From positions 1 through 43,748 of the forward strand of contig CANRDY010000009.1 in assembly GCA_947629515.1 (NCBI GenBank): a stretch of DNA of 43,748 nucleotides, read 5' to 3'. The notes beneath the pieces are model-generated. The model searched no databases. It saw only the letters and a list, made by a program, of their open reading frames with translations, and had not been told where the DNA came from. Within the stretch, counting starts at the first letter, position 1, and each line of letters begins with the position of its first letter. This DNA is from an uncultured Clostridia bacterium (GTDB lineage: Bacteria > Bacillota > Clostridia > Christensenellales > Borkfalkiaceae). This document shows positions 13,654 to 43,650 of the stretch, piece by piece. Position numbers and translations under genes: made by a program.

Positions 13654-13796
13654 CGTACGAAGTTAGAAAGTCCGAAGAAGCAAGCAAGACAAGGCGAACG
13701 AGCGACGACCGAAGCGAGTGTACAATGAAGTACACGAACAAGGCGGAGCGATGTTCAACGCCGTATTGCGCCGCTTATTCGGGCTTTTCGGTAGCT
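13654..13796. repeat. Element E, copy 1 (structured repeat)
   Basis: The ends pair as stem P1: 13667-13681 (AAAGTCCGAAGAAGC) with 13773-13787 (GCTTATTCGGGCTTT), 14 of 15 positions including one GU. The central hairpin P2 is GTGTAC (13718-13723), loop AATGAA, GTACAC (13730-13735). It starts TACGAAGTTAGAAA and ends CTTTTCGGTAGC. Confidence 0.85.
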
Positions 13797-13937
13797 GTAC
13801 GAAGTTAGAAACTTCGGAGATGCGAGTTATGCAAGGAGCGCGCGCAAACGACGAAGGGAGCGTACAATGAAGTACGTGACCGAGGAGTGCGCAAGCGCGA
13901 CGCCGCAGAACGAAGCATATACGAAGTTTGCGGCAGT
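13797..13937. repeat. Element E, copy 2, abutting the GltD-like gene
   Basis: P1 pairs 13809-13823 (AAACTTCGGAGATGC) with 13915-13929 (GCATATACGAAGTTT), 13 of 15 positions, with both arms changed relative to copy 1. P2 is GCGTAC (13860-13865), loop AATGAA, GTACGT (13872-13877). It ends right beside the stop codon of the minus-strand flavoprotein gene. Confidence 0.85.
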
Positions 13938-15158
13938 TTAAGGAAGGGTTTTGAGATAGGCGTCCATAGCCCCCGCCACCCTCTTCGAGGTCTCAACGGC
14001 TTCGACCACCGTCTTTGCGCCGCGCACGACGTCGCCAGAGGCGAACAAACCGGGACGGCTCGTTTCGCCGTTCTCGCTTATCTTGGCAAGCCCGCGCTCG
14101 TTGACTTCAAGCCCGTAGGTATCCGAAAGTATGAGCTTCGAAGGTCTTTGCGAAATGCAGATCATAACCGTGTCGGCGGGCATAAGTTCGGCTTTTTCGG
14201 AAGCTCCGACAACTCTGTGTTCGTCGTCGTAAATTGTATCGGCAAACATCACGCCGTCGTCGGTTATTTCGACGGGCGTCTTGTTGTATACGAACTGCGC
14301 GCCCTCGATCTCGGCGTATTCAGCCTCTTCCTTGCTTGCCGAATACTTGTCGCTGCGAACGACTATCTTAACGTCTTTAACTCCCTTTCTGAGGGCGGTG
14401 CGCGCCACGTCCATTGCAACGTTGCCCGCGCCTATTATCGCCATACTGTTGCCCAAATCGTAGCTGTCGGGGCTTTCGAGGAAATGTATGCCGTAGTGCA
14501 CGTGCCCGAGCGTTTCACCCTTTATATTTAAGGATATGGGCCATGTAACGCCCGTGCCTATCGATATGGCTTGGAAGCCGTCGCGGAACAGCTCTTCGAC
14601 GCCGAACGCCTTGCCGATGGTTATGTTGGGCTTTATCTTTATGCCGAGCTTGCGCATGAGCACTTCGTACCTGTCGACTATGGTCTTGGGCAGACGGAAC
14701 TCGGGTATGCCGAAGCGCAGAACGCCGCCTATTTTTGCCTTTGATTCGAACACGGTCACGTCGTAACCGAGCTGCGCCATTTTTATTGAAATGGTAATTC
14801 CCGCGGGACCCGATCCTACCACCGCAACTTTTTTGCCGTTAGGCTCTGCCTTGGTGAGGGCGAGGCTGTCGAGGTAATGCGACGAAACGAAGTTTTCGAT
14901 CGTGCTTATTTCGACGGGTTCGCCCTTTATTCCGCGAACGCAGTGCCCCTGACATTGGTTGCCGTGGTTGCAGACTATCGAGCACACGACCGAAAGGGGG
15001 TTGTTGTCGAAGAGCATTTCTCCCGCCGATTTTATATCGCCGTTGAGAAAGGACGAGATCATCTGCGGTATGGGCGTGTTGACGGGGCAGCCCGTCCTGC
15101 ACATGGGTTTTTTGCAATTGAGGCATCTCTTTGCCTCGGCTATAACGTTATGCGCCAT
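13938..15158 (-). CDS. GltD-like NAD(P)-dependent FAD/Fe-S oxidoreductase
   Basis: The 406-residue protein belongs to the glutamate synthase small-subunit family. An N-terminal Fe-S region has CLNCKKPMCRTGCPVNTPIP and CSIVCNHGNQCQGHC. An FAD site (VVGSGPAGI) and an NAD(P) site (IIGAGNVAMD) follow, and the FAD-binding GDVVRGAKTVVEAV segment lies near the end. It is shorter than classical GltD (about 470 residues), and no GltB large subunit is present, so it may serve another electron-transfer partner (compare SudA/NfnB/SfrB-type enzymes); the substrate cannot be read. The ATG has AAGGAGGG six bases upstream. It starts 28 bases after the HIT gene stop, suggesting one transcript. Confidence 0.88.
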   Translation of the reverse strand: MAHNVIAEAKRCLNCKKPMCRTGCPVNTPIPQMISSFLNGDIKSAGEMLFDNNPLSVVCSIVCNHGNQCQGHCVRGIKGEPVEISTIENFVSSHYLDSLALTKAEPNGKKVAVVGSGPAGITISIKMAQLGYDVTVFESKAKIGGVLRFGIPEFRLPKTIVDRYEVLMRKLGIKIKPNITIGKAFGVEELFRDGFQAISIGTGVTWPISLNIKGETLGHVHYGIHFLESPDSYDLGNSMAIIGAGNVAMDVARTALRKGVKDVKIVVRSDKYSASKEEAEYAEIEGAQFVYNKTPVEITDDGVMFADTIYDDEHRVVGASEKAELMPADTVMICISQRPSKLILSDTYGLEVNERGLAKISENGETSRPGLFASGDVVRGAKTVVEAVETSKRVAGAMDAYLKTLP

Positions 15159-15186
15159 AAATTTCCCTCCTTACGCCTTTCGCCCC

Positions 15187-15606
15187 TCAGAGCGCGGCTT
15201 TTATATCCTCTATCATCTTTTTATATTCTTCGTCGGAAAGGTACACCTTTTGGGGGTTCATCTGGAAAGTCCCGCCCCACTCGTCGCCGTCTTTGTATTT
15301 GGGGCAAAGGTGCATGTGAAGGTGACAGCCCGTGTCGCCGTATGCGCCGTAGTTGAGCTTGTCGGGCTTAAAGACCTTGTGGATAGCCTTTGCGGCGCGG
15401 GTGACGTCGGCAAAAAAGGCGTTGCGTTCCTCTTCGGATATGTCGACTATCTCCGACACGTGGTCCTTATACGCCACAATACACCTGCCGCGCTTGGATT
15501 GTTCTTTGAAAAGTATGAGCGTGCTGACCGACAGATCGCAGATATATATGCCGAATTTGGCGAGAAGTTCGCCCCGCATACAGTAGCCGCAATTACAATC
15601 TTTCAT
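15187..15606 (-). CDS. HIT (histidine triad) family protein
   Basis: The 139-residue protein ends its catalytic domain with the histidine triad HLHMHLCPKY, the nucleotide-hydrolase/transferase signature of the HIT superfamily. The N-terminus carries CNCGYC, a likely metal site found in some bacterial HIT proteins. The ATG (15604-15606) is preceded by AGGGGAAC. It is the first gene of a likely two-gene transcript with the GltD-like oxidoreductase. Members hydrolyse nucleoside phosphoramidates or dinucleoside polyphosphates; the exact substrate here is unknown. Confidence 0.92.
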   Translation of the reverse strand: MKDCNCGYCMRGELLAKFGIYICDLSVSTLILFKEQSKRGRCIVAYKDHVSEIVDISEEERNAFFADVTRAAKAIHKVFKPDKLNYGAYGDTGCHLHMHLCPKYKDGDEWGGTFQMNPQKVYLSDEEYKKMIEDIKAAL

Positions 15607-15641
15607 TTGAGTTCCCCTTTTTTAAGATTTTACCATAGCTT

Positions 15642-15670
15642 ATTATATCACGCCGCGCTCCTTTTTGCAA
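15642..15670 (-). promoter_or_regulatory. Promoter of the HIT/GltD-like pair
   Basis: On the minus strand TTGCAA (15665-15670), a 17-bp spacer and TATAAT (15642-15647), with TG one base before the -10 hexamer (extended -10). Confidence 0.75.
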
Positions 15671-15806
15671 TACCCTTTGAAAATTTAAATTGATCAAAAA
15701 ATGATACGGAAAATATTTTTTTGGGGGAAGGATCGCGAGGAAGGGTTCGCACACAAAAACTGCCCTCGAAGCGGGTTTAATGTCGAGAAGCGGGTTTAAT
15801 GTCGAT

Positions 15807-16136
15807 TTATAATCTGTTCCTATCTCCCCATTCGCACATCATATCGAGAATGGGCATGAGCGATTTTCCGCGTTCGGAAAGGCTGTATTCCACTTTCGGC
15901 GGAATTTGCGGATATTCCTTGCGAATAATCAGCTTGTCCGCTTCGAGTTCTTTCAGCATTACGCTCAACGTCTTATAGGAAATCCCCTTGATATACCTTT
16001 GCAACTCATTAAAACGCACCACTGAAAACTCCATGAGCGTGTAGAGAATGGTCATCTTGTATTTTCCGTTGATGAGCGAAAGTGTGTACGAAAAGCCCGT
16101 GTCCGAAAGTTTTTCATTGGCAATGCAACGTTCCAT
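15807..16136 (-). CDS. HxlR-family transcriptional regulator
   Basis: The 109-residue protein is a winged helix-turn-helix of the HxlR/YodB type: a Cys near the N-terminus (MERCIANEK), then GKYKMTILYTLMEFSVVRFNEL, GISYKTLSVMLKELEADKLI as the recognition region, and VEYSLSERGKSLMPIL in the wing. HxlR proteins often respond to oxidative or electrophile stress, and the single N-terminal Cys matches the sensing position in YodB-like members (inference). It is divergent from the NTF2-like gene and shares a compact control region whose inverted repeat lies in its own 5' leader, so it probably controls itself and its neighbour. Confidence 0.93.
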   Translation of the reverse strand: MERCIANEKLSDTGFSYTLSLINGKYKMTILYTLMEFSVVRFNELQRYIKGISYKTLSVMLKELEADKLIIRKEYPQIPPKVEYSLSERGKSLMPILDMMCEWGDRNRL

Positions 16137-16164
16137 AATTTTCTCCTATACTTTCCAAACAGTA

Positions 16165-16189
16165 AGTACCGCACATAAATGTGCGTACT
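16165..16189. promoter_or_regulatory. Candidate HxlR operator
   Basis: AGTAC-c-GCACAT-aa-ATGTGC-GTACT is an 11-bp inverted repeat with one unpaired base. It touches the -35 of the NTF2-like promoter and lies downstream of the hxlR start, so a bound repressor could block both. Confidence 0.65.
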
Positions 16190-16217
16190 TGACAAAATAA
16201 TTATACGGTCATAAAAT
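16189..16217 (+). promoter_or_regulatory. Promoter of the NTF2-like gene
   Basis: TTGACA (16189-16194), a 17-bp spacer and TAAAAT (16212-16217). Its -35 shares a base with the inverted repeat. Confidence 0.75.
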
Positions 16218-16228
16218 CTACTTATCAA
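16200..16228 (-). promoter_or_regulatory. hxlR promoter, overlapping the divergent promoter
   Basis: On the minus strand TTGATA (16223-16228), a 17-bp spacer and TATAAT (16200-16205). It interleaves with the plus-strand promoter over the same 40 bp. Confidence 0.75.
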
Positions 16229-16252
16229 TAAATTTTTAAGGAGGCTCATCTT

Positions 16253-16636
16253 ATGAGAGCAACATTGAAAGACTATCGGGACGTGGAAAAAGCGGCTATG
16301 AACTTCGTCAAGAGCGTAGCCGAGGGCAACAGCAAATATGCAAAAGAACTTTTTACCGACGAAGCCGTTTTGTTCGGTATCCTCAACGGCGAGCTGGAAC
16401 ACGGTTCTATCGAACAGTTCTATAAAAATGTGGACACGGTCGGCGCGGACGAGAATTTCAAAGCAAGAATTGACGTTATTACCGTCGAGGAAACGCTTGC
16501 CGTCGTACGTGTTTTGGAAGAAAGCTGGGGCGGCAGTATTGATTTTACCGACTATTTGCTTCTTCTGAAACTGAACGGCGAATGGAAATGCGTTGCCAAA
16601 GCCTACAATCAAAATTCCAATACCATTAAAAAATAA
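16253..16636 (+). CDS. NTF2-like/SnoaL-fold small protein (lumazine-binding-like)
   Basis: The 127-residue protein has the cone-shaped NTF2-like fold pattern: an N-terminal helix (VEKAAMNFVKSVAEGN), FTDEAVLFGILNGELEHGSIEQFYKNVD, and a C-terminal sheet with FTDYLLLLKLNGEWKCVAKAY. This matches the Lumazine_bd_2/SnoaL-type families found next to HxlR or MarR regulators. It has no signal peptide and is likely cytosolic. The ATG has AAGGAGG seven to eight bases upstream. Activity is unknown; the divergent regulator suggests inducible expression, perhaps under redox or electrophile stress (inference). A good terminator follows. Confidence 0.85.
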   Translation: MRATLKDYRDVEKAAMNFVKSVAEGNSKYAKELFTDEAVLFGILNGELEHGSIEQFYKNVDTVGADENFKARIDVITVEETLAVVRVLEESWGGSIDFTDYLLLLKLNGEWKCVAKAYNQNSNTIKK

Positions 16637-16652
16637 TCTTTAACGATTGATT

Positions 16653-16683
16653 AAGGAAGTCCCGTAACGGGGCTTCCTTTTTG
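16653..16683 (+). terminator. Terminator of the NTF2-like gene
   Basis: AAGGAAG-T-CCCG, loop TAA, CGGG-G-CTTCCTT, then a T-run. The 12-position stem includes one GU pair. Confidence 0.85.
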
Positions 16684-16687
16684 CATT

Positions 16688-16753
16688 TTACTGTTTTAAA
16701 AATTCCACGGTGAAGGTGCTGCCGACGCCGAGGGTGCCGGTTACGCCTATTTC
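16688..16753 (-). pseudogene. C-terminal remnant of a sensor histidine kinase
   Basis: Read on the minus strand the segment gives EIGVTGTLGVGSTFTVEFLKQ-stop (written here as EIGVTGTLGVGSTF and TVEFLKQ). This resembles the last G-box of histidine kinase ATPase domains (GxGSTFTV). An in-frame TAG (16754-16756) lies directly upstream and no kinase precedes it, so only a relic of about 21 codons remains. Confidence 0.6.
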
Positions 16754-16772
16754 CTAGCCCGATTTTTGAAAG

Positions 16773-16880
16773 CCCTCAATAGCTTTGAATCCCGTCGCCT
16801 CGACCAAGCAACGCCCCGCGCGGTTTTTAACCGCGCGGGGCGTATTTTATGTTAAAGTGATAAGCGACGGGATTTGAGGG
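16773..16880. repeat. Nested inverted repeat with a 15-bp core hairpin
   Basis: The core is ACGCCCCGCGCGGTT (16811-16825), loop TTT, and its exact complement (16829-16843). Outside it AATCCCGTCGC (16788-16798) pairs with GCGACGGGATT (16864-16874), and CCCTCAA (16773-16779) with TTGAGGG (16874-16880). It could act as a bidirectional terminator for the facing genes. Confidence 0.7.
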
Positions 16881-16907
16881 TGAAGACGCCGCATTTTCCT
16901 TGTTATT

Positions 16908-18049: not shown

Positions 18050-18061
18050 AAATAATACCTC

Positions 18062-18101: not shown

Positions 18102-18103
18102 TA

Positions 18104-18132: not shown

Positions 18133-18139
18133 CACCTGA

Positions 18140-19886: not shown

Positions 19887-19919
19887 AGCGCGCGGGAGTT
19901 GGAAAAACGCCCGCGCGCT
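19887..19919. terminator. GC-rich hairpin at the edge of repeat locus 2
   Basis: AGCGCGCGGG and CCCGCGCGCT form a 10-bp stem followed by ATTTTA. It resembles the hairpin at 20446-20480 and, like loci 1 and 3, sits immediately before a BC module. Confidence 0.5.
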
Positions 19920-19941
19920 ATTTTAAATAAGTCACCAATAA

Positions 19942-20250
19942 GTCACCCTGAGCAAGCGAAGCGCGTCGAACGGGTCTGTTCCGCAGTATAGCGAAGTTTT
20001 TATAAGGTAGATATTATAGAAAACCCCTACCCTCCCCTCCCCCTTGGAAAAGGGGAGGGAATAGGGGCGGAGAAATTACAAGGGGGAGGAATTAAAGGTG
20101 GGGGTTCACAGCAGTACCGCGCAAGAACGTTTAATTAAATGATTGCTTTTTTGTGTACGCGTTTCAAAGTGCAAGCACAGACCACGGGGGGATTATCTCA
20201 CTCAATCGAACCCGCTTCGCGGGATTCTTATATCGTTCGAAATGACAGTG
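19942..20250. repeat. Module BC, copy 2, interrupted by module D2
   Basis: It has the same ends as copy 1 (GTCACCCTGAGCAAGCGAAG and CGAAATGACAGTG). After GATATTATAGA it is interrupted by about 130 bp containing module D2 (20021-20106), then resumes at ACGCGTTTCAAAGTGCAAGC. Confidence 0.8.
20021..20106. repeat. Module D2, copy 2 (inside module BC)
   Basis: AAACCCCTACCCTCCCCTCC, then AAAAGGGGAGGG, and further on AAGGGGGAGGAATTAAAGG with GTGGGGGTT. The 3' half matches 43406-43435. Confidence 0.75.
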
Positions 20251-20301
20251 CCTTATTATGCTCCGATATTATTTAAAAGTGCTTGAACGGAGTAAATTGC
20301 A

Positions 20302-20440
20302 ATTACGAAGTGAGAAACTTCGGAGATGCGAGCAAGACAAGGCGAACGAGCGACGACCGCAAGGAGCGTACAATGAAGTACGTGACCAAGGCGGAGCGAT
20401 GTTCAACGCCGTATTGCGACGCATATACGAAGTTTAACGG
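20302..20440. repeat. Element E, copy 3
   Basis: P1 pairs 20315-20329 (AAACTTCGGAGATGC) with 20421-20435 (GCATATACGAAGTTT). P2 is GCGTAC (20366-20371), loop AATGAA, GTACGT (20378-20383). The ends match copy 2 while the middle matches copy 1, so copies appear to recombine. Confidence 0.85.
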
Positions 20441-20445
20441 GAGCA

Positions 20446-20500: not shown

Positions 20501-23500
20501 TTAAAGTTTTTGCTTATTCTCGCCGCGGCTTACGTTGGCAAGCTCTGTGCCGTTGTACGAAGCCGTGAACGAGAGCGACCACTGATAGTAATTGTATTTA
20601 ATACTCAAATTGGGTTTTCTGGTCATGCTGTTGGTCGCCGTTACGGTTAGTATGTTGGTTGCGCCGTCGAATGAAGTTACGGGCGTTGCGCTCGAACTTA
20701 CATCGCCGTAACCCGTTCCGACGGAATCTTTGATTTTACCGTACATAGAGACTTCTGAGAACGCCCAGCCGCTTCCGTTCAACATTGAAGCCGCACCCGA
20801 GAAATTATACTTTACGTTAGCCGTAAAGGTAAAGTCCTTATTGGGTCTTACCGCGGTAATTTCCGCCTGCTCGCAGTAATACCACAGCGCGTGCACGGAG
20901 TACGAGGGTTCGTCGGGGTTATAGGCAAGCGTTTTGGAAACGTCCGAAAGGTCGAGCTGTACCCAGCTTTCGCCCGTGAAGTACCACCAGCCTTTGAATT
21001 CGTACAGGTTGCCGTCGTTGCTCTTTACGGGCGCGGCTATGGAGTAGCCGTCGTGCAAAACGACGTTGCTCATATACACCTTTGAACCGTATTCGCTTTG
21101 GGTGACCGTTCCCGCCTGCGCCGCCGTGAACCCGAACGTGCTGTAAAGGTTGATATCTATTTCGTTGTCTATCCAATAGATATATACTGTCATATCGTCG
21201 GTAACGGTGAAGCGTTCGACCTTGGTGCCGCCCGCAGAGCTTTCGTCCACGGTGTAGAACCCGCCGAAGTCGTAGTTTTCGATGTCGTACGAAAGGCTCG
21301 AAAGGTCTGCCGTTTCGCCGTATTTGAATACCTTTGAAACGGTCCACCTGCTTCCGCTCTTTTCAAAGCCCGCTACGGCGCGGTCGCTCGAAAGGGTGAC
21401 GGTGTACTCCTTGGGGGTGTAGTACGCAACTATCCTCAGATCGGAGTTGACGGTTATATACCTTTCGGTAATTGCCTCGTTACTTCCCTCGAATCGCCAT
21501 TCGCCCGTGTGCCCCGTCTTTGCGGGAACGGGAACGCCGTCAAGGTCGAGCACGCCGCCTTCCGTAAAGCCCTTGCTTATGGTCTTATCGCCGTCGCCAG
21601 TGTTATAGGTGAACACGACGCGGTGGGCGAACTGCTCCCACACGGCGGTGTACGTCGCGTCCGTCTTTTGGGTTATGAAGTCGATATAGTGTATAACGTT
21701 CCCCTCTTCGTCGCGGTAGCCGTTGAGAATGTGGGTATCGTTCCACGTCGCGCCCTCGGAGAGCACAAGGTGGTTTGCGGGCGAACCGAATTCGGCGTTG
21801 GTGTAGACTATTTCGCGGTAGTACTTGTCGCCGTCGGCGTGCCAGAACTCGTTTACGGGGTGGTCGCTGACGAAGTGCAGAACCCTTGAATAGGGCGTGT
21901 ACTGCGCCGTTACCGTCATATTGCCGTTGACGTACTCCGCGCCGCCCGAGATCTTCCAGCCCGCAAAGTCGTAGCCGACCTCGGCGACCTCTTCCGCGCT
22001 TATTCCCAGCTCTTCGCTGTCGAGCGAAATTTCGTCGCCGTAGTAAGCTGTGAGCTGTTTTATGACCTTGTCGGGACCGTCGCCCGAAATCACGTAGCTT
22101 ACTGTGTAGGGAATATTCTCCCATACCACCGTGAGCGAAATATCCGAGCTTATGCGCAATGCCGCAACCTGTTCGCGGGTGAGCTCTTCGCCGCTTTCGG
22201 TTACAAACGCCCTTATCCTTTTGCCCTCGACCACGACGTCGAGTTTAAGGTCGAGGCTCTTTTTGTAGCTGAGCGTAAAGGCGCGTACATAGCCGCCCGC
22301 GGGGGCTTCGACATAATTTTCGTTTATCTTGTAGTCGCTGAATATCTTTACTTCGTACTGCTGGGGAACGTACTGCGCCGTTATTTCGAGCGCGCCCGTG
22401 AAGTTATCCGCGCTGTATTCGCCCCATTCGAGCACGTAGTGGTCGATATTGTCGTAAGCCGAAATGTCGGGGAAGAGCACGGACGAGAGGAGCTTGTTCT
22501 GCTTTCTGTCGTAAAGCGCGTACTGCGTTGAGATGAACTCGCGCTCGCCGCTTTCGACGCCCTTCTGACGGTAGAACGACACCGTTCCGAAAGTTATGTC
22601 GCCCTTTGCCGCGGAGGCTTCCGATGAGTTGCCGCTGAACGACACCTCGACGTACTTGCCGCCGTTAGCCGCCGTCATTGCCGCCCAATCGTTGCGGGCG
22701 CAGATCTCCTCGAACGTCTCGCCGTTGAGCCATCTTCCGAAGTACACCGCGGGCGAATTGCCGAACACGTCGGCAGCCGTTGCGGCTACGTTGCCGTCCG
22801 CGGCGGTGTTGCGCCATTCGTTGCAGGGATTTGCGTAATAGAGCGTGCCGTCTATCGTAAGGTCTATATAGAGGTTGCCGACGAGCGTTACTCTGAGCGA
22901 AGTGTTTACGTCGAGTCCCGTTATGTAATAGACTTGCCTGCCGTTCTCCTCGCTCTTTTCCGCGCCGAACTCAACTACTATATCGCTCAAAGATATGGTG
23001 TTGTTCTGCAAAATGCCCGCGCCGTTGAGCACTATCTTCCACTTGCCCTGTTCGGCGTTGTACGCAAACTGTTTGAGGTAAGTGGCAAGCTGTGTGCCGT
23101 AGTCCTGCTTTATCGCCGCCTTTTTCTCGGTCGCGCCCGAATCGGTCTTTGCGAACTCGTCCGTAATTACCGAACCGAGGTTGAAGAGGAAACCTATCTG
23201 GTTGAGAGCGTCCTTTCCGAACTCCTCCACCGTCATTGCGCGGTATATGGTCTCGCCGCCCGATACGCGCTTCAAGTAGATCATTCCCTTTTTAAGGGTA
23301 ATGTCCGCAACGCCGTCTGCGTTGATTATATCCACAACGGCTTTGAATTTGGGATAGCTTATTCTCAGGTTCAACGCTATGTCGTTGGTGTCTTTGTCGA
23401 CGGTTACCGAAATCGCGTTCAAAGTTACCGTGAGGTCTGCAATGTTGTAGTTGAACACAAAGTGCAGAACGCCGTTAAGATTTATCTTGCCGTTTATGTA

Positions 23501-26500
23501 GAACACGTTGTTCAAGGCGTAGGAACTGCTCTCCGCTCCCTCTTCGCCCGAGATGACCTCTTTGTGGGTCGCCGAGTGCACGAGGGCTTTTAACAAGGTG
23601 TCGATGCCCGTGAGGTTGTAGTAGCCCGAAAGGGTCGCGCCGCTTTGGGATAAGGGCTTTTCGACGCCCTCGTAGGTTATGTTCATGGAGAGGTTCCCGA
23701 GCCGCTCTTTTGCGGTTGAGTCGCCCTTTGCGGGAAGCTCTACGTCGCCTATCGCAACGCCCGTTATGCGCGAGCCGCCCTCGTACGCCTCTTTGTCCAT
23801 GGTGAACCGCACGTCGCCCGCGCCCACGGTGAGACGGGATCTGCCGTCCTCTTCGTAGCTTACCGAAAGTTTATCTATAATTCCGAGGCGTTCGCCCTCT
23901 TCCCTCTGCGAAACCGAGGGGGTCGAGACCTGTTCGTCCGCCTTGTCGAGGGCTTTGCCGAGCGCGTCTATTATAGATTGCAGACCGCCGTCTATAAACT
24001 GATCTATAAGGCTCGAACCGAGCGAGACGAACTCGTCGCGCACGTCGGGTATCCACTGATCTATAAGAAGGTCGTCGGCGACGTGGGTGAGAGCCGAAAG
24101 CACTCTTGCTATCGTGGCGTTTTGACTTTCGAGCGAACCTAAATCGAGCATAGCCGCACCCGCCGAAATCACCGTCATTATCTCGCTTACGGGGGCGTAG
24201 ATTTTGACGGGTTCGTGCGAAATGACGTTGCCCGATGCGTCGGTCTCGCCCTTTAAGGGCACGCCCGATATCGACATGAACACGTCGAGCGAGGGTTCGC
24301 CCTCTGCGGTCGGGGAATATTCGCCCGTAGTCTTGCCGTCCTCGCCGAACGAGGGATCGGCGTCGAACACGTAGAAGTCGAAGAGCACGCTGTTGACTTC
24401 GGCTATCGTCGAATTCATATCAACGGTTATGTGCGCGTACATGTCGGGAGCGACCCAGAAGTTGATGTCGTCGCGCTTGTCGAAGGGAATATCGTTGCCC
24501 TCGGCGTCCTTTGCCGTGCCCGTGAAGAAGTGCAGAGGGAAGCCGCTTGCGCCCTGTACGTATTCGAAAGTGGCGTCTATGTCGTATTTTATTCCGCCCG
24601 TCTTTTCGTAGGCGGGGTCGTCGCTTGAAACGGTTGCGGAAAGGTCGATATCGAACTCGCTCTTCGAGAGCATTTCGAGGGAAGCCGCAACGTAGTCGAG
24701 CGCTTCGGCAAGGTCTGTCGCCGAAAGCAGTTCGCCGCCCTCGGAAAGTTCGGGAACTTTTGGAGCGTTGTATTGACTTATTTCGACGTTCGAAAGGTTC
24801 AATACCACTTCCGCCGTTTCGAGCTTAACTTCGAGGTCTGCGTTCATGCCCGCAAAGGCGTTCGTGCCCCTGCAAAGTTCGACCGCAAGCCCGCCGAGCT
24901 CTATTCTCAAAAGTCCGTTCTGCTCTATGGGGCGCACAAGGCGGACGGCGTTTATAAGGGCGGGTATGTCTGAAACGGGCGCGCCCGCCACCGCTTCGAC
25001 TATGCTCTCGATATCGAGAACGCTCTCCTTGCCGCCGTTTATAAGCGACATTATGTCCGAAAGGCTCTCGGCGCGTTTGAGCACGTCGTCGCCGTCGACT
25101 ATGTTGTTGACGACGCCCGCGATCCTGTTATACAGCTCTGTCGCCGCTCTCTCGAGAAGGGCGAGGTCGTCGGAGGGGGCTTTGCCGCCCTTGCCGTCGT
25201 CCTTTACCAGGGCTATCTCCGCGCCCATGCCGCCGTAGATGAATTTGAGGTTGGTTCCGTCGAACGAGGCGTATATGTCGTGCCGGGATTCGCCGAGCGC
25301 AAGGCGCGCGTCGAGCGCGAACGAAAGCCCGTTCTTCCAGCTTATCGAAAGATTTTCTATGCCGAGGGCAAGGCGGGCGGTATCAAGCCCGAGCACGAGC
25401 GTGCCCTTAACCGTAAGTCCGCCGTTTTCTATCGCCTCCGCAACGCCGTTCAATATGGTCGTTATCTCTTCGCCCCTGCAATAGTATGCGTCGGCGGGAA
25501 GTTCGCCCTTGGGAGCGTAGGGATCGACCGCAAGCGCGCCCGCGATTTTTACGCCCTTTACGGTGCAGTTTACTTCGGCGGTAACAAGATTGCCGTCGCC
25601 CGCCGCAAGCGCGAGAGCTATGCCGTTGTAATCTACCGCGAACTTGCCGTCCCTGCCGAAGAGCTGCAAGCCAGAAAGTATCTCGCCTATTTTTATGTCG
25701 CCCTTTACGCTGTCTTTTATTTTGTCTAAATCCAGCCCCGCAGCTTTGGCTATTTCCTTTATGTCGAGAGAGTTCAGTTCGGGAAGGTCTGCCTCGCGTG
25801 CGATCGCGTTATACATATTGAGAACGCTTGAAAGGAACGCGGAGTAATTGTCGGAGCCGTCCTCCGCCGTCTTGTCGAGGACGACGCCCACGCCGTCGTA
25901 GACCAGCGCAGACCTTTCGCCGCCGATCTGCGCGTACAAGCCGTGCACAACGCCGTTGACGCCAAGCTCGGCGTTCATAAAGAGGTTCAGGCCCTCTTTG
26001 AGGTTGAGCGAAAGTTCCTTTATGTTCAAGGTTATCGGAACGTTTTTAAGGGTAACGCTTACCGAACCGCTTGCCGTTATCCCGCCGTCGGCTATTATCT
26101 TCTGTACGCCCTCTATCAGGGGAATGAGCTTTGCGCCGTCGAATACCGTTACCTCTTCGGGGCAGGCGGCTATTCCCGCAAAGGGATACGCCGAGGCGTT
26201 CGCAAGCGAAAGCGAGAAGTCTTTGCCCGTATATGTAAGGTCCAATGCAAGTATCTCTTCGCCCTCGCCCGCGGAAATTCCGAGGGTAAGCCCGCCCGTC
26301 TGCAAGGTGATAAGGTCGTCGCCGCTCGCCGATATGCTGAGCGAATTTATGAGCTTGTATATGTCGTCCGCGGTGAAGTCCTTTTTGAGTTTGTCGAGGG
26401 ATATATCCAATTCAAAGGGCTTGCCCGTCGCTTCTTCGACCAATCCCGAAACGGCGTTGAGGAGCGCGGGGAAATCGGCTTGGGCAAGGCGCACGCCCGC

Positions 26501-29352: not shown

Positions 29353-29560
29353 GTTTGTAATATAACTTTATTACTCTTTTTTAAGATTTTTTGATTTTTT
29401 ATGCGACACGCTGTCTATTAACTCACCTTTTCGGGGTTTTGTGGGAAGTTTACAGCCCCCGCCGCCCCTCAAAAATGTAATAATTTTATATTACAAAAGT
29501 AATGTCGCCTTTGCCGAAAAACCGCCCTTGAAAGCCCCCGAAAATCGGTTCGGAAACCGT

Positions 29561-29670
29561 CCCCGAAAAGCCATGAAAAACGACCCGAAAACGGCTAAAA
29601 AAAGCGCGAAAAAGAGCGCGAAAAAAGGGCTGAAAAGCCCCCCGAAAAGCCTTGAAAAACGACCCGAAAA
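29561..29670. repeat. 31-bp direct repeat pair in a T-depleted tract
   Basis: CCCCGAAAAGCC followed by GAAAAACGACCCGAAAA occurs at 29561-29591 and again at 29640-29670 with one mismatch. Confidence 0.85.
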
Positions 29671-29727
29671 TTACCCCCAAAACGGCTTGAAATAGGCGCG
29701 AAAAAGCGCGTAAAAAGACACAAAAAA

Positions 29728-29747
29728 AGGGGGCTTGAAAGCCCCCT
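29728..29747 (-). terminator. Terminator of the small membrane protein gene
   Basis: AGGGGGCTT, 2-base loop, AAGCCCCCT, followed on the minus strand by seven T residues. Confidence 0.85.
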
Positions 29748-29769
29748 CAAAAGCCCCCGAAAAATCGGC

Positions 29770-37554: not shown

Positions 37555-38220
37555 ATGATAACAGAAAACGTTAAAAGGCTATTGGAAGAGATACCCGCGA
37601 CCAACCCGCAGGGCGAGAGAGTGCGGCTTGTGGCGGCGGTTAAAACGCAGACCGTAGAGGCGATAAACGAGGCGGTGGCGGCGGGTATAACCGACATAGG
37701 CGACAACCACGTGCAGGAATTCCGCGACAAGTACGCGGGCATTACGGGCGACGTTCGGCGGCATTTTATAGGGCATTTGCAGACAAACAAAATTAAGTAC
37801 CTGTTGGGCAAGTGCTTTTTATACCACTCCATCGACCGACTTAACCTTGCCGAAGAGCTTTCGAAAAAGAGCGCGGAACGGGGGATAACTTCCGACATTT
37901 TAGTGCAGGTGAACGCTGGCAACGAGGAAACAAAAGGCGGCTTTGCGTTCGAGGAGCTCGGCGGGGCTTTGGAGCAAATAACGGCACTGCCCGCGCTGAG
38001 GGTAAAGGGGCTTATGGCTATGCTGCCCTTTTCGGACGACCAAATTCTTTTGCGGGAGCTCGCCGCGCGCATGCGCGGGGAATACGACCGCTTCAACGCG
38101 CTTTTCGGCGGGTTCGAGTATCTGTCGATGGGCATGAGCGGCGACTGGAAACTGTGCGTGGAGTGCGGAAGCAATCTTATCCGCCTCGGCACAAGCATTT
38201 TCGGCAAGCGTTCCGCTTGA
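37555..38220 (+). CDS. YggS/PLPBP-family pyridoxal phosphate homeostasis protein
   Basis: The 221-residue protein is the small single-domain PLP-binding TIM-barrel family (YggS, YlmE, PROSC). Visible are the PLP-lysine strand RLVAAVKTQT, IGDNHVQEFRDKY, HFIGHLQTNKIKYL, the VQVNAGNEETKGG segment, and LSMGMSGDW with the phosphate-binding C-terminus GSNLIRLGTSIFG. I start at the ATG 37555 (MITENVKRLL), which has AAGGA six bases upstream; the frame is open further upstream without a better start. The family buffers PLP rather than catalysing a reaction. Its last codons are included in a 66-bp tandem duplication that continues past the stop. Confidence 0.93.
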   Translation: MITENVKRLLEEIPATNPQGERVRLVAAVKTQTVEAINEAVAAGITDIGDNHVQEFRDKYAGITGDVRRHFIGHLQTNKIKYLLGKCFLYHSIDRLNLAEELSKKSAERGITSDILVQVNAGNEETKGGFAFEELGGALEQITALPALRVKGLMAMLPFSDDQILLRELAARMRGEYDRFNALFGGFEYLSMGMSGDWKLCVECGSNLIRLGTSIFGKRSA

Positions 38221-38335
38221 CCTTGTGTCTTAACAACATTGCGGTAAAACAGCGTTTAGGCTGTTCAACGCAAGCGTTCCGCTTGATCAAGATTCTTAAC
38301 AACATTGCGGTAAAACAGCGTTTAGGCTGTTCAAC
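38204..38335. repeat. 66-bp tandem duplication across the yggS stop codon (module A, copies 2 and 3)
   Basis: GCAAGCGTTCCGCTTGA, the last codons and stop of the gene, starts at 38204 and again at 38270. Each is followed by module A (38229-38269 and 38295-38335), which contains an AACAGC/GCTGTT hairpin. Confidence 0.9.
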
Positions 38336-38340: not shown

Positions 38341-38370
38341 GCGGCGGGCGCGTGGCAACGCGCCCGCCGC
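38341..38370 (+). terminator. Terminator-like hairpin after the YggS gene
   Basis: GCGGCGGGCGCG, 6-base loop, CGCGCCCGCCGC: a perfect 12-bp stem followed by ATTTTA. Confidence 0.65.
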
Positions 38371-38386
38371 ATTTTAAATAATAACT

Positions 38387-38570
38387 GTCACCCTGAGCAA
38401 GCGAAGCGCGTCGAACGGGTCTATTCCGCAGTATAGCGGAGCTTAATGTTGTGATTACTTTTTAGAAATGGGAAACGCGTTTCAAAGAGCAAGCACGGAC
38501 CACGGGGGGATTCTCTCACTCAATCGAACCCGCTATCGCGGGATTCTTATGTCGTTCGAAATGACAGTGC
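38387..38570. repeat. Module BC, copy 3
   Basis: Same ends and order as copy 1 (GTCACCCTGAGCAAGCGAAG to CGAAATGACAGTG), uninterrupted. Confidence 0.85.
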
Positions 38571-38600
38571 CTTATGTTGCTCCGATAATATTTAGAACAC

Positions 38601-38718: not shown

Positions 38719-38859
38719 CGTACGAAGTGAGAAAGTTCGAAAAAGCAAGTTATGCAAGGAAAGCGAGGAAAACCCGAAGGAGCTTACAATGACGTAAGTG
38801 ACTGAGGGTTGCCGCAGCTTGACACAGCAGAACGTAGCTTATTCGGGCTTTTCGGTAGC
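38719..38859. repeat. Element E, copy 4
   Basis: P1 pairs 38732-38746 (AAAGTTCGAAAAAGC) with 38837-38851 (GCTTATTCGGGCTTT), 14 of 15 with two GU pairs. P2 is CTTAC (38783-38787), loop AATGAC, GTAAG (38794-38798). An outer helix P3 pairs AACCC (38771-38775) with GGGTT (38806-38810). Confidence 0.85.
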
Positions 38860-38893: not shown

Positions 38894-38969
38894 GCTTTTG
38901 TGCACTTTGCACATATTTTTATTATAATTAATAGTGTAAAATAAAATTGTATGACAGGAGGGAATGATC

Positions 38970-41900
38970 ATGCGAATTTTTAAAAGGGTGTGCACACCCT
39001 TCATCGCCTGCTTGCTGGCGATGCTCCTGCTCTTTTCGGTGACAGCCTGCTCCCCCGTTTCGGGCGGCAAATACAGGATCACCTATCACGAGAGCATTAA
39101 CGAACTATACCTTGTACAGACTTACGACGCGGGTGAAAACTCTGTTGAACCGCCCGCGCCCTCTAAGGCAAACAACACCTTTGCGGGTTGGTACGAGGAC
39201 TCCACGGGCGCAGGCTCGGCTTTTGTGTTCGGTCAGAAAGTGACCGCCGATATCGACCTCTACGCCAAATGGACTCCCGATTCCACCGACCCCGGAACGG
39301 GCGGCGGTACGGGCGGTCAAACCCCCGGCGGCAACCAACCCGGAACGGGCGGCGAGACCGACCCCGAAACGGGCGGCGGCTCGGGCGGACAGACTCCCGA
39401 AGTTCAAAAGGTGACCGTTCACTTTAACACGCACGGCGGCGCGAGCATGAGCGACGTTCAGATCGACAAAGGCACGTCGTTCAACCCCGGCGAAGCTACG
39501 GGCAAGTTAGGTTACACCTTCGAGGGCTGGTACACCGACAGCGCGTGCACCCAAAGGTTCATACCCAACGTCACCGTGATAAACGAGGAGACCACCCTTC
39601 ACGCCAAGTGGATAGAAACCGAGCACAGCGGCGGCACTCAGACCACCTATTTCACGGTTACGTTCAAGGTGGACGGCGAGACCTACGGCGAAGTGCAGAG
39701 CGTTGCGCAGTACTCCAAGGCAACCAAGCCCATCACCCCTCAAAAGGACGGGCATGCGTTTGTCGCATGGTACGAAGAAAGCTCGTTCGATAACGTTTAC
39801 GACTTCACCAAGCCCGTAACCGCCAACATCACGCTCTTTGCGAAATTCGAAGAGATAGCCGCGAACCTCATCAGCGTGGGCGCGTATAACGAGAGCATTT
39901 ACGCAACGTGGAAAGAGGGTGCGCCCGCCTCGGCAAAGGTCGAGTTTAAGCTCGCAAGCGAGGCAGACACGGCTTACAGAGAAGTTGAAAAGCCCCTTAT
40001 CCGCCTCACCGACGATACAAGCGTTTCGCGCGTGGACGTTGTAGGGCTTTCGAAAGGTTCGTACATCTTCAGAATAACCCCGTCGAGCGGCGACGCGATA
40101 GTGACCCCCGCGGTGGAAGTTCAGGAATACGACCGTTCGGGCTATGCGCACTTCCAATACACCGACGGCGTGGGCGCGTATAAAGACAACGGCGAACTGA
40201 AAGACGGCGCGCTGGTAATTTACGTGACCGAGGCGAACAAGAACTCCGTTCTCGACAACGCCGCCCAGAGCGCGAATATATTTGTATATCACGCGAATAG
40301 CCACAGCTATACGCCCGTTGATACTTCGGACGCAACTTTCAGAAACTACTTCACGACGACCACAACTTCGGCGGGAGTAACTCCGGGAGTTCAGACGGGC
40401 ATAGGCGAAATTCTCAACAACCGCCGTTACAGCGGCAACGACAGAATGGGCGTGGGAATCGCCAAGCTGTGCTCTGTTTACGGCGCGGTTGCGGTAAGAT
40501 TTATAGGTAAAATAACCTCTACCCTCAATTCCGACGGTAAAACCACCTCTATCCGCGGTCTCACCGATTACGACTCCACCGACAACGGCGGCTCGAAAGG
40601 CGACAACGGACAGATGGCGAGAATGGTAAACGCCCACGACCTCACCTTAGAGGGCATAGGCGAAGATTCGATGATCGAGGGCTTCGGCTTCCACTTCATC
40701 TCTTCCGTACTCGGTCGCACAAACGACAGTAACAGCAATAAAATGGGCAAGAGCTTCGAGGCGAGAAACCTCACCTTCCAGAACTATCCCGAGGACGCGC
40801 TCGGAATGGAAGGCGAACAGGGCATTTTGAACAACAGCGGTTCGATAAGCGATTCTTCGCGCGCGGAGAGCGACCTCTGCTCGCCCGTTGAAAGGTGCTG
40901 GGTACACCACTGCTCGTTCCTGCCCGGTCATGCCAGCCCCACTACGGACAGCGACAAGTCGGAAGGCGACGGCAGCTGCGACTTCAAGCGCGGACAGTAC
41001 TACACCATGTCGTACTGCTACTACGAGAACTGCCATAAGACCAACCTTATAGGTTCGGGCGACACCTCGTTGCAGTACAACATAACCTTCCACCACAGCT
41101 ATTGGAAGCAGTGCGAATCGCGTATGCCTCTTCTGCGCAGAGCGAATATACACTTCTACAATAACTTTATATCGGGCGACCAGAACGACTCGAAGCATAA
41201 GCTCAGCTATGTAACGAGCGCGAGAGCAAACTGCTTCATGTTCTCGGAAGCCAACTACTACGACGGTTGCAAGACGACGGTCGAAATCGACAGCGGCGGC
41301 GTTGTTAAATCGTACAATAACGAAATATACGCCGACTTTAAGGGAAGCGCGGCTACGAAGGTAACGAGCCGTACCGCGACGGTTGCCAACAGCTGCAAGT
41401 TCATATACAGAAATATAGACTATTCGCACTTCGATACAGACTCCACTCTCTTCTACTATGACAGCGTCAACCACGTGAGCGATTGCTTGCTCGACGACGC
41501 GGTGACGGCAAGGAGAAAGTGCATAATGTACGCGGGCGCAAACGGCAGAGGCACGGACGATACTTCGATGATGCAGTACACGCCCACCACGCCCGTCACG
41601 CTCGACAATAACAACGACGTTGCGATAACCCTTCCCACGTCGACCTCGGAGAGCTACTCCAATAACGGCGTGCTCTTCCGCAACCTCACGGGTGCAAGCA
41701 GCGAAACGATAAAGTTCAAGGGGCAAGGCATATTCTTCACGCTCAACGCCACCGCGACTCTCACCGTTACCACTACGAGCACGGGCGACGACGCACCCGA
41801 ACTTGTAAGGTCCGACGCGAAGATAATGAGCCATGCGTTCACGGGCACTCTTAAAATAGAGCTTGCGGCGGGAAGTTACTTCATTGCTTCGGGTCAAAAG

Positions 41901-43163
41901 GATAAACAATGCGTAATTTCGGCGATTTCGTTCAACGGCAAGCAGATCTCCAAGGAAGAGAAGTTTAATACGCTGAAAGACGCGGTTGACGAGCTTCCCG
42001 ATGCTGCGGACGTCCCCGAGGCGACGGCGGCTCTGGGCGAAAAGCTCGACGCGGTTGCGGCGGCGGCGGGCGCGTTGACGGCGACGGAGATCGAGGAGTT
42101 CAAGACGGCTAACCCCGGCTATTCCGAGAAGTATCAGGAGGTACTTGCAAAGTACAGCGAGCTGAGGGTCAACGCGGTCAAAGAGCTGATAGACGATATC
42201 GGCACGGTCGACGAGAACGCGGGCGACAGAATTTCCGCGGCGAGAAAGGCTTACGCCGAACTTACCGCCACCGAACAGGCACAGGTCGACAACTACAAGA
42301 CGTTGACCGACGCCGAAGCGGCGTTCGAACAGTACAGAGTAACTTCGCTCATCAAGCGCATCGAGGCGTTCCAGACCGAAGTCAACGGGCTGACAAGCGA
42401 CACGGCGACGGCGGAGAAAGTCAAAGAGCTTGCCGATAAGGGCGACGACCTGACGGGCGAGTACGACGCAATGGGCGTTGGCGAAATGGACGACGGCACG
42501 GATAAGACCAACCTTGAAGAAGCTAAGGAAAAGCTCGACGCGGCGTTGGAGAAGCTGGCGGGATACGAGAACCTGCACGAGTTCCTCGATGTGTTACAGC
42601 ACTTCAAAGACTACGACCACGACGCCGACGGCAACAACAACCTGTTGCAGTGCCCCGAATACGGCAAGCTGGTTGCGGCTTACGGCAAGCTGACACCCGA
42701 GCAAGTAAGCGGGCTTACACAAAGCGATAAGCAGTTGTATGACGACACCGTGGCGGCGCATGATGCACTTATGGCTGACGTCGTAGAGTTCCACTTCAAC
42801 AACGGTGTTCCTACCATAGTTGACCCCGACGGAAGCAAGACCAATGTATTTGAAGGTACTGTAACGCACGTAAAGAGTACTAAGGTCGATGTATTCGGTT
42901 TGAACGTTTCTGGTTTCAAGTTGGATAGTAACGGAACTCTCAAAATAACCCTAACGCAGAAAACGCGTATTACGTTCTATGTACTGACCACCAAGACATT
43001 TAAGTTCACGGGTGGAACGACTGCACCGAAGATTTCAGCTTTCAGAGAAAACGCAGAGGGTGTTCTCTATGCGGTAGACGTCGAGTTTGAAGCCGGTACC
43101 TATGACATGGTAAAAGACGGCGGCGAAAACGATATTTACTACGCAGTAGTGCAAGCATTGTAA
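38970..43163 (+). CDS. Pectate-lyase-like (PL1) lipoprotein with InlB_B repeats
   Basis: The start is the ATG 38970 (MRIFKRVCTPF), seven bases after AGGAGGG; the ATG at 38964 is too close to it. The 1397-residue product has a signal peptide with lipobox (SVTAC). Three Listeria-Bacteroides repeats follow (about residues 38-103, 145-214, 227-292; for example TFEGWYTDSACTQRF) with Gly/Thr/Pro linkers. After a fibronectin-like segment comes a right-handed beta-helix typical of polysaccharide lyase family 1, at about residues 450-830: VHHCSFLPGHAS, CDFKRGQYYTMSYCYYENC, HKTNLIGSGDTS and FHHSYWKQCESRMPLLR, with RMPLLR at residues 718-723 as the lyase RxPxxR signature. A beta-sandwich, a helical region (about 1010-1250) and a final beta domain complete it. 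It likely cleaves pectic or related polyuronides outside the cell. Confidence 0.92.
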   Translation: MRIFKRVCTPFIACLLAMLLLFSVTACSPVSGGKYRITYHESINELYLVQTYDAGENSVEPPAPSKANNTFAGWYEDSTGAGSAFVFGQKVTADIDLYAKWTPDSTDPGTGGGTGGQTPGGNQPGTGGETDPETGGGSGGQTPEVQKVTVHFNTHGGASMSDVQIDKGTSFNPGEATGKLGYTFEGWYTDSACTQRFIPNVTVINEETTLHAKWIETEHSGGTQTTYFTVTFKVDGETYGEVQSVAQYSKATKPITPQKDGHAFVAWYEESSFDNVYDFTKPVTANITLFAKFEEIAANLISVGAYNESIYATWKEGAPASAKVEFKLASEADTAYREVEKPLIRLTDDTSVSRVDVVGLSKGSYIFRITPSSGDAIVTPAVEVQEYDRSGYAHFQYTDGVGAYKDNGELKDGALVIYVTEANKNSVLDNAAQSANIFVYHANSHSYTPVDTSDATFRNYFTTTTTSAGVTPGVQTGIGEILNNRRYSGNDRMGVGIAKLCSVYGAVAVRFIGKITSTLNSDGKTTSIRGLTDYDSTDNGGSKGDNGQMARMVNAHDLTLEGIGEDSMIEGFGFHFISSVLGRTNDSNSNKMGKSFEARNLTFQNYPEDALGMEGEQGILNNSGSISDSSRAESDLCSPVERCWVHHCSFLPGHASPTTDSDKSEGDGSCDFKRGQYYTMSYCYYENCHKTNLIGSGDTSLQYNITFHHSYWKQCESRMPLLRRANIHFYNNFISGDQNDSKHKLSYVTSARANCFMFSEANYYDGCKTTVEIDSGGVVKSYNNEIYADFKGSAATKVTSRTATVANSCKFIYRNIDYSHFDTDSTLFYYDSVNHVSDCLLDDAVTARRKCIMYAGANGRGTDDTSMMQYTPTTPVTLDNNNDVAITLPTSTSESYSNNGVLFRNLTGASSETIKFKGQGIFFTLNATATLTVTTTSTGDDAPELVRSDAKIMSHAFTGTLKIELAAGSYFIASGQKDKQCVISAISFNGKQISKEEKFNTLKDAVDELPDAADVPEATAALGEKLDAVAAAAGALTATEIEEFKTANPGYSEKYQEVLAKYSELRVNAVKELIDDIGTVDENAGDRISAARKAYAELTATEQAQVDNYKTLTDAEAAFEQYRVTSLIKRIEAFQTEVNGLTSDTATAEKVKELADKGDDLTGEYDAMGVGEMDDGTDKTNLEEAKEKLDAALEKLAGYENLHEFLDVLQHFKDYDHDADGNNNLLQCPEYGKLVAAYGKLTPEQVSGLTQSDKQLYDDTVAAHDALMADVVEFHFNNGVPTIVDPDGSKTNVFEGTVTHVKSTKVDVFGLNVSGFKLDSNGTLKITLTQKTRITFYVLTTKTFKFTGGTTAPKISAFRENAEGVLYAVDVEFEAGTYDMVKDGGENDIYYAVVQAL

Positions 43164-43180
43164 TTCGCAATAAAAAAGCG

Positions 43181-43210
43181 GCGGCGACGGTTTTCAACCG
43201 TCGCCGCTTT
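43181..43210 (+). terminator. Terminator of the PL1 lipoprotein gene
   Basis: GCGGCGACGGTT, loop TTC, AACCGTCGCCGC, then TTTGCTT. Confidence 0.8.
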
Positions 43211-43369
43211 GCTTGCTCCTTGACCGCTAACGATACCGCTACCCCTACCCTTTCTCGTCGGTTGTAAGGACAACAACCGCCTCGGGCATCGTTCGCGCAT
43301 ACATTTGCGCGAACTCATCTCGTGCGGCAAAACAGCACACTGTGCTGTTTTGCGAAGTCCGCACTCGAC

Positions 43370-43436
43370 CCTTGAAAAAGGGGAGGGAATAGAGAGAGGG
43401 CAATTATAAGGGGGAGGAATTAAAGGTGGGGGTTTT
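43370..43436. repeat. Module D2, copy 4
   Basis: CCCTTGAAAAAGGGGAGGG, then AAGGGGGAGGAATTAAAGG and TGGGGGTT. Confidence 0.7.
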
Positions 43437-43508
43437 AATCGGGGCGCGAATGGGCGAGGGCGGGGCGGGAGCGAATGGGAAGTTTAATGGGTTCGGTCGC
43501 CCTTGCAA

Positions 43509-43650
43509 TTACGAAGTGAGAAAGCCCGCAAGAAGCAAGCAGAGCGAGGCGCGCGAGGCTTTCCGACAGGCGCGTACAAAGACGTACGCAACTGAGGAAA
43601 ACGTAGCGCAACAATGCTATGCGCCGCTTATTCGGGCTTTGCGGTAGCTA
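43509..43650. repeat. Element E, copy 5
   Basis: P1 pairs 43521-43536 (AAAGCCCGCAAGAAGC, one bulged C) with 43626-43640 (GCTTATTCGGGCTTT). P2 is GCGTAC (43572-43577), loop AAAGAC, GTACGC (43584-43589), a full 6-bp stem. P3 pairs TTTCC (43560-43564) with GGAAA (43596-43600). Confidence 0.85.

Follow-up and report, generated by a model that had tools for sequence, protein, structure and literature searches.

The 43,748-nucleotide stretch of contig CANRDY010000009.1 that was analysed here (hereafter the window) comes from an uncultured Clostridia bacterium of the order Christensenellales, and it carries five copies of a structured repeat of about 139 nt, which we refer to as element E. E belongs to a large family of small mobile elements that is spread among gut Clostridia and is apparently unnamed. 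The explanation that we favour, with a probability of about 0.62, is that E is a REP/ERIC-like, non-autonomous mobile hairpin of Clostridia whose fold is under selection. Selection on the fold, either as RNA or as single-stranded DNA, is strongly supported because the copies covary, keep conserved unpaired bases, retain a G.A mismatch that changes its position, and fold better on one strand than on the other. Mobility is concluded from the fact that the copies are dispersed and mosaic, and that they are present or absent at comparable sites.

Distribution of element E

E was originally predicted to be a five-copy repeat. This is correct for the window, where all five copies were found within 2 nt of the predicted positions, but not for the genome that holds the window (G000, hereafter the home genome), in which at least 79 matches to a covariance model were obtained. 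The head motif that is common to the window copies, TACGAAGT[GT]AGAAA, marks the start of each of them (Table 1) and has 95 matches in the 1.70-Mb home genome, against 0 for the backwards control (exact 14-mer). These matches are dispersed through the genome at about one per 18 kb. In 84 of the 94 matches that were extracted (the one on contig C54 was left out), a recognisable 3' end follows within 260 nt. Fifty-five of the copies are 138-141 nt long, while the remaining ones are longer, which is due either to the insertion of modules or to a head that is part of a 34-nt unit directly in front of an E. Since some heads represent this unit, the number of heads cannot be equated with the number of elements.

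The covariance model (R1) was built from these 55 copies. In the home genome, all 79 scored candidates matched, and this count is a lower bound as the best 79 candidates were scored. The original prediction had proposed that such a model be run on the home genome and related ones, and R1 indeed matched 38 of the 41 genomes of the genus, with counts ranging from 0 to at least 79 per genome. Furthermore, matches were obtained in 82 of 248 genomes of the order, spread over 32 of 115 genera, and in 36 of 392 genomes of the class, 28 of these 36 being outside the order; few candidates were scored per genome in the order and class searches, so that the copy numbers are lower bounds and the weakest matches may be due to chance. 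The background of R1 was low, as 123 kb around 30 radA genes yielded two window copies and two other matches, and 67 kb around 30 5S genes yielded two weak matches. The E family is thus order-wide and patchily class-wide. A 23-nt pattern of the E subfamily of the home genome had 0 matches in other genomes when the genome contig collection was scanned for it. Among the best 80 LeuC relatives in named records, Clostridia metagenome-assembled genomes came closest, and the names included Candidatus Coproplasma, Borkfalkia and Pumilibacter, which places the host within this circle of gut Clostridia. Among viral contigs, the exact pattern of the M2 core had 0 matches; a looser version matched 3 contigs, and one of these (L375, 40.4 bits) holds a convincing E copy docked on an antisense open reading frame (ORF).

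No Rfam family (release 15) was named at any of the copies scanned. The window scan gave 0 matches, the sole match of copies 1 and 2 was a nematode snoRNA with an E-value of 3.8 that remained under the gathering score, and an E copy located beside a 5S gene of genome G462 gave 0 matches up to an E-value of 1. Likewise, no description of E was found in literature searches, the scope of which did not extend to subscription papers.

Fold, covariation and folded strand

According to the folding models, E is a rod-shaped hairpin of about 120 nt with a short head and a tail, in which the upper strand is predicted to form six stacked helices with conserved purine-rich loops between them. All window copies fold as long imperfect hairpins with z-scores of -3.0 to -6.1 relative to shuffled sequences, and only 0, 0, 0, 0 and 2 of 200 shuffles, respectively, folded as well as the native copies. 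The ends of E do pair, as was originally proposed, but the 15 paired positions that had been suggested are in reality an 8-bp helix, an internal loop or mismatch, and a 4-bp helix. The compensatory changes between copies were found as described. On the 55 home copies, RNAalifold predicted 30 pairs, 14 of which show changes on both sides.

To judge covariation on a broader alignment, R1 was run on 76 loci of relatives, which gave 93 matches with E-values of 1e-6 or less and 92 distinct rows. In these copies 97.8% of 2679 pair cells were paired and double changes occurred at 28 of the 30 pairs. None of 500 shuffles reached the observed values for any of five covariation measures, although it should be noted that the alignment was fitted to the structure and that the shuffles do not preserve relatedness. 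When pairing partners were slid, only 24-45% of the cells were paired. Covariation therefore lies above the controls, as would be required of a structured-RNA family. The original view that changes preserving the pairing point to a selected fold is strongly supported by these figures, except that, as described below, part of the covariation comes from swaps of whole nested modules and not from point-by-point compensation.

In the alignment of relatives, 20 unpaired columns are at least 90% conserved. Of its 92 distinct rows, 91 have letters at the positions beside the apical helix, and in 83 of these the helix is flanked by tandem GA/GA. In helix 3, no copy has both central pairs canonical (0/91); exactly one is canonical in 83 copies and neither in 8. 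Exactly one G.A or A.G is found at these pairs in 89 of 91 copies, and it may occupy either position.

Energies and wobble pairs identify the upper strand as the folded one, at the level of the models and for RNA and single-stranded DNA alike; this is also the strand on which the original prediction had read E. The RNA folding energy of the upper strand was -50.2 kcal/mol compared to -38.6 kcal/mol for the reverse complement, and it was lower for the upper strand in 54 of the 55 home copies. With DNA parameters this was the case for 55 of 55. In addition, G.T cells outnumbered A.C cells by 106 to 15, or by 40 to 15 if the basal pair of the apical helix is disregarded.

Exchange of nested modules

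E is a mosaic, and part of its covariation comes from the swapping of nested modules. Outer arms, middle arms and apical hairpins each occur as a few recurring types that are swapped as matched pairs. The middle modules of the 55 home copies fall into clusters of 19, 14, 10, 6, 3, 2 and 1 members, the singleton being copy 5 of the window. The largest middle-module type is nearer to copies from congeneric species (0.79) than to the nearest of the other home types (0.66), and the second type is marginally nearer to a relative (0.79) than to another home type (0.76); no such trans-species type was seen among the remaining five clusters. Mismatched outer arms are present in at least one copy (C43:7836), and another copy (C31:12109) shows a new compensated block of pairs. 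Altogether, 54 of the 55 home copies differ from their nearest sister in 2-13 alignment columns, and private variants are found twice in 60 stem columns as compared to 14 times in 83 unpaired columns (Fisher p-value of 0.014).

Some copies are extended by additional sequences. At four loci (L005, L008, L041 and L042), an extra domain (GGCGAGCGGGGATTTCTCAAAACAGCGGACACCCGCTGTTTTG...) lies between the outer and middle modules and resembles an added hairpin domain. A 66-nt repeat, which stands alone at positions 13187-13252 and 38204-38335 of the window (reverse complement GTTGAACAGCC...GTTAAGACAC...GGTCAAGCGG...), is also inserted within longer E copies (e.g. L006, L009 and L024).

Placement at protein genes and stable RNAs

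E sits at the edges of functional sequences, where it either follows the stop codon of an antisense gene or precedes a stable RNA at its 5' end. We examined 88 distinct copies from relatives, mostly one best match per genome plus stretches of G266 and G017. In 81 of these, an antisense ORF of at least 80 aa ends near the 3' side of E, and in 68 the stop codon of this ORF lies between -3 and +30 nt of helix 2. With a stricter gene call, the 3'-side gene is antisense in 71 of the 88, with its stop codon within 30 nt in 54 of those 71. Genes on the 5' side are located at median distances of 210 nt (antisense) and 146 nt (sense). The pairing of the outer stem in 70 docked copies declines at the stop codon, from 0.6-0.9 outside the gene to about 0.5 in the last codons, with 0.4 for a control using other loci. 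Two copies possess stems of 21 pairs, the outer helix of which runs into the neighbouring coding sequence.

The original statement that all window copies lie beside gene 3' ends proved to be partly correct. The ORFs in the window, like the neighbour genes in the home genome, represent mechanical ORF calls. Only 1 nt separates the end of copy 2 from the stop codon of ORF 13938-15158 (-), which is antisense to it. The distance between copy 3 and the stop codon of ORF 20501-29128 (-) is 57 nt, and a GC-rich inverted repeat is located between this copy and the 3' end of the ORF. In contrast, copy 4 precedes the start of ORF 38964-43163 (+) by 105 nt, and copy 5 is found 346 nt beyond the stop codon of the same ORF.

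Genes that recur next to E encode QueA (8 copies), PrfA/PrfB (4), DegV (3), SecY (2), NrdD (2) and ribosomal protein S9 (2), with names based on one or two members per group that were checked against NCBIfam. Two of the three DegV copies are in tandem at one gene, and the S9 copies are more than 60 nt away from the stop codon. Occupancy of comparable loci is low. Among 30 queA loci of the order, E is present at the 3' end in 3, namely in the home genome, where the copy is divergent (76.5 bits), and in genomes of two other families. Among 30 radA loci of the genus, E was detected 3' of radA in the home genome and, weakly (58.6 bits), in G013, while G030 has an E on the 5' side; L246, L258 and L264 include less than 60 nt downstream of radA and are uninformative, which leaves 27 loci. 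Several genomes have a radA match outside these 30 loci, e.g. G002, G012, G018, G028, G029, G031 and G063. In two genera of one family, a sense E-like match was observed 11 nt before the start codon of rplB for ribosomal protein L2 (L281:1501-1637 and L285:1755-1894).

Beyond the order, E borders stable RNAs on their 5' side, with the hairpin on the transcribed strand. Across seven loci, the end of E is no more than 4 nt away from the 23S start for all six complete 23S matches (L290, L291, L294, L295, L296 and L299) and within 1 nt of the 5S start for five of the seven 5S matches (L291, L295, L296, L299 and L300), the 5S matches in L290 and L294 being without E; one further E is located about 210 nt before the 16S gene of L296. 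A further scan of 20 sources revealed, in seven of them (L266, L271, L276, L278, L279, L282 and L286), E copies whose end is at most 25 nt from a 16S, 23S, 5S or tRNA start, at 19 sites in total. L282 and L286 both belong to the order, and E lies about 20 nt before 23S in these two. No E was flush with 5S in the 30 5S loci of the order, six of which have less than 25 nt upstream of 5S and are uninformative, and the two weak matches noted above both lie in L316 on the other strand. The idea that rRNA spacers were the source of E within its own order was rejected on this basis. Furthermore, a scan of 60 loci found no tRNAs beside E within the order; this set included two loci, L283 and L284, from outside the order.

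The 23S-5S spacers of five rRNA operons of genome G462 provide a comparison of sites within one genome. Two are empty (L290 and L294), one is filled (L291), and two contain an internally deleted copy (L292 and L293). No target-site duplication was evident at this single comparison of an empty with an occupied site. As judged by eye, L277 and L288 seem to contain a T-arm-like stretch after an E-like match, and L279 seems to contain an internal 5S-like stretch in this position, as if stable RNA genes had been interrupted.

Alternative explanations

The alternative that fares best, although we regard it as unlikely, is that E is a conserved functional structured RNA, i.e. a cis element or small RNA such as a processing or mRNA-end element that is kept by locus-wise selection. 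Copies that vary so much in number within one genus, that occupy so few comparable loci (2/30 for radA and 3/30 for queA), and that are dispersed through the home genome while remaining very similar to their nearest sisters do not fit this explanation well, nor do the empty operons of G462 and the antisense orientation of most gene-side copies. The deep covariation and conserved loops of E are, on the other hand, readily understood as those of a functional RNA, and the same is true for the repeated placement at queA 3' ends in three families, for the junctions with the 5' ends of 16S, 23S, 5S and tRNA genes in the transcribed orientation, and for the depletion of private variants in stems.

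Secondly, the covariation could have been made without selection on a fold, through replication template switching at a quasi-palindrome by which one arm is copied onto the other. Hairpins with multibase compensatory changes have been reported to arise and to be kept up through template switching (PMC8794818), and a trace of it may be seen in the outer helix of E, which is site-specific and sometimes reaches into coding sequence (about 0.5 in the last codons compared to 0.4 in the control). Nevertheless, we consider this explanation improbable, as internal mismatches remain unhealed, 20 unpaired columns are conserved, and G.T outnumbers A.C. In particular, healing by template switching is insufficient on its own because helix 3 keeps exactly one G.A mismatch in nearly all copies, at either position. 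As the sole source of covariation it was rejected for the core of E, where mismatches and loops are conserved, while it may play a role in the outer helix.

A third possibility is that E is a REP-type element moved by a Y1 transposase (RAYT/TnpA-REP) acting on single-stranded DNA at the replication fork. REPs are reported to lie near the 3' ends of genes and to be able to provide stop codons (PMC3733652), and E shares with them the high copy number, palindromic structure, position just downstream of coding regions, and ability to supply stop codons. The last four letters of the 55 home copies are GTAG in 13, GGAG in 27, GCAG in 13 and GAAG in 2, which is reminiscent of the GTAG tag of REPs. 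However, REPs are palindromes of 20-40 nt with a GTAG or CGTC end tag, whereas E measures 138-141 nt, and its GTAG-like tail, which lies on the 3' side of the hairpin, is not conserved among relatives. The Y1 domain (PF01797) was absent from the home genome, which is 92.6% complete, and was found in 5 of 14 named control genomes, on the basis of which a RAYT/IS200 mobiliser was rejected.

The orientation of E bears on this third possibility as well. In the home genome, E has a uniform orientation in 18 of 19 multi-site contigs (62 sites), and in four relatives this was the case for 12 of 14 such contigs. The immediate genes do not explain the orientation of E, because the sites between convergent genes (19/19) and divergent genes (7/7) agree with that of the contig; at tandem-gene sites the agreement was 24 of 24 for antisense and 5 of 7 for sense copies. 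Of two matches to the DnaA family in G266, the stronger is close to the point at which the sampled GC skew changes from negative to positive. In the left arm of contig C1 and in contig C12 of this genome, 18 of 19 copies are on the + strand and all ten sampled stretches have a negative GC skew. To the right of dnaA, three sampled stretches have a positive skew and 2 of 5 copies follow the orientation rule. A link between the orientation of E and replication is therefore no more than suggested, because of this outcome on the right side of G266 and because the orientation is unflipped across dnaA in three genomes (G017, G233 and the home genome). The GC skew per contig of the home genome was too weak for orienting its contigs. 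All in all, the lack of a flip, the absence of PF01797 and the differences in length and tail make movement by a Y1 transposase highly improbable.

Lastly, E being a SINE-like retroposon, reverse-transcribed from RNA with template jumping at RNA ends, is barely credible, even though E directly abuts the 5' ends of mature RNAs with its 3' end and the one site compared shows no evident target-site duplication, as the reverse transcriptase domain RVT_1 (PF00078) was found in none of five E-rich genomes (G000, G006, G030, G017 and G266) and the antisense placement after stop codons is not simply predicted. On account of this absence from the five genomes, SINE-like spread was rejected; PF00078 is present in the E-rich genomes G014 and G024 as well as in G404, G462 and G600.

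A proposed mobile hairpin with a selected fold

The favoured explanation is that E is a mobile hairpin the fold of which is selected. A host or mobile-element protein would recognise this fold, as RNA or single-stranded DNA, and recognition would drive the spread of E, with recognition of the upper-strand fold as a condition for copying. Insertions would survive mainly where genes stay unbroken, which may in part be due to the ability of E to contribute a stop codon on the side that faces the gene. In transcribed settings such as rRNA and tRNA operons, E probably acts as a processing hairpin of the RNase III type, and judged by its placement and by the precedent of the Neisseria NEMIS elements the hairpin in transcripts is likely to be cut or bypassed like other spacer hairpins. 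It has been reported that NEMIS transcripts are proposed RNase III substrates, that effects of ERIC depend on orientation, and that RPE is found in RNA genes too (PMC2229807). The covariation would reflect selection on movement-competent copies, helped by the exchange of inner parts between copies, and template switching perhaps contributes in the outer helix.

Several observations weigh against this explanation. The presence of E at queA 3' ends in three families could reflect long retention and hence a cellular function, and selection after insertion is hinted at by the scarcity of private variants in stems. At protein-gene loci, the folded strand mostly runs antisense to the neighbouring gene, and how it would be transcribed is not obvious. 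Neither PF01797 nor PF00078, as the two mobiliser domains sought, was present in the home genome at its completeness of 92.6%. Moreover, the copies of relatives were best matches chosen by the model, so that well-paired copies are over-represented and decayed ones under-represented among them.

A more far-reaching version of the explanation, which we consider rather unlikely, is that E is a class-wide element with a selected folded rod, a conserved but movable G.A mismatch and freely exchangeable helices, which is spread by a machinery other than Y1 or RVT_1 and settles where transcribed sequences begin or end, in one orientation behind stop codons and in the other ahead of stable RNAs.

Relation to known repeats

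E resembles the GTAG- and CGTC-tagged REP/BIME families in that these are high-copy extragenic palindromes near gene 3' ends that can supply stop codons (PMC3733652), but it differs from them by its length of about 139 nt, its six helices, its conserved purine loops and a fold that is constant across the class. Also, there is no Y1 transposase in the home genome, and E is found before rRNA and tRNA genes as well. Closer in size are ERIC/IRU, NEMIS (Correia) and the Rickettsia RPE, which are described as palindromic elements of about 105-155 nt that fold as RNA (PMC2229807). Those elements were described for Proteobacteria, whereas E occurs in Clostridia and its fold is kept across genera by block and point covariation. 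The pneumococcal BOX is likewise a modular small repeat (PMC3049150), but E exchanges whole nested arm pairs, which makes its modules concentric. Pre-rRNA spacer hairpins are comparable to the E copies on the transcribed strand at the 5' ends of 16S, 23S and 5S in some Clostridia, but E is also found at protein-gene loci and precedes 5S in only some operons of one genome. Unlike miniature inverted-repeat transposable elements, E lacks terminal inverted repeats that are conserved and common to it and a parent transposon, which was sought as PF01797 and PF00078; the terminal helix of E is an inverted repeat whose sequence varies from site to site. Integron attC sites were considered in addition; these form arrays beside an integron integrase, and the heads of E are dispersed.

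Element E and other repeats in the window

The coordinates of E in the window are given in Table 1. The arrangement of the 34-nt head unit followed by E was found again elsewhere in the home genome.

Table 1. Copies of element E and the preceding head unit in the window.
Feature	Coordinates	Strand	Helix-1 arms	Remarks
34-nt head unit	13622..13655	+		E head (TACGAAGTGAGAAA) and short hairpin, immediately before copy 1
E copy 1	13656..13794	+	13667-13674 + 13780-13787	139 nt; tail 13788-13794
E copy 2	13798..13936	+	13809-13816 + 13922-13929	Tandem to copy 1
E copy 3	20304..20443	+	20315-20322 + 20428-20435	
E copy 4	38721..38858	+	38732-38739 + 38844-38851	
E copy 5	43510..43647	+	43521-43528 + 43633-43640	

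A second interspersed repeat (GTCACCCTGAGCAAGCGAAGCGCGTCGAACGGGTCT...) is present at 13278-13510, 19919-20280 and 38364-38600 and precedes E in three intergenic regions; a related stretch, CTCAGAATGACA, precedes the E on viral contig L375. Two other repetitive regions were observed in the window, namely a tandem array with 23-nt spacing (TTTTATGCG..TTTTGCACATA) at 314-543, approximately 200 nt downstream of rpoC, and low-complexity intergenic units resembling CCCCGAAAAGCC at 29517-29763, upstream of an acetolactate synthase gene.

Significance

Element E, which appears to be absent from Rfam 15, is a structured element that has tens of copies in some genomes and lies, in many gut Clostridia, next to genes such as queA, prfA, prfB, secY and the rRNA genes. 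It provides a bacterial case of a small repeat that keeps its fold while its arms swap as modules, and it offers a single family in which the spread of palindromes, the upkeep of pairing in hairpins and the processing of rRNA spacers may be tested.

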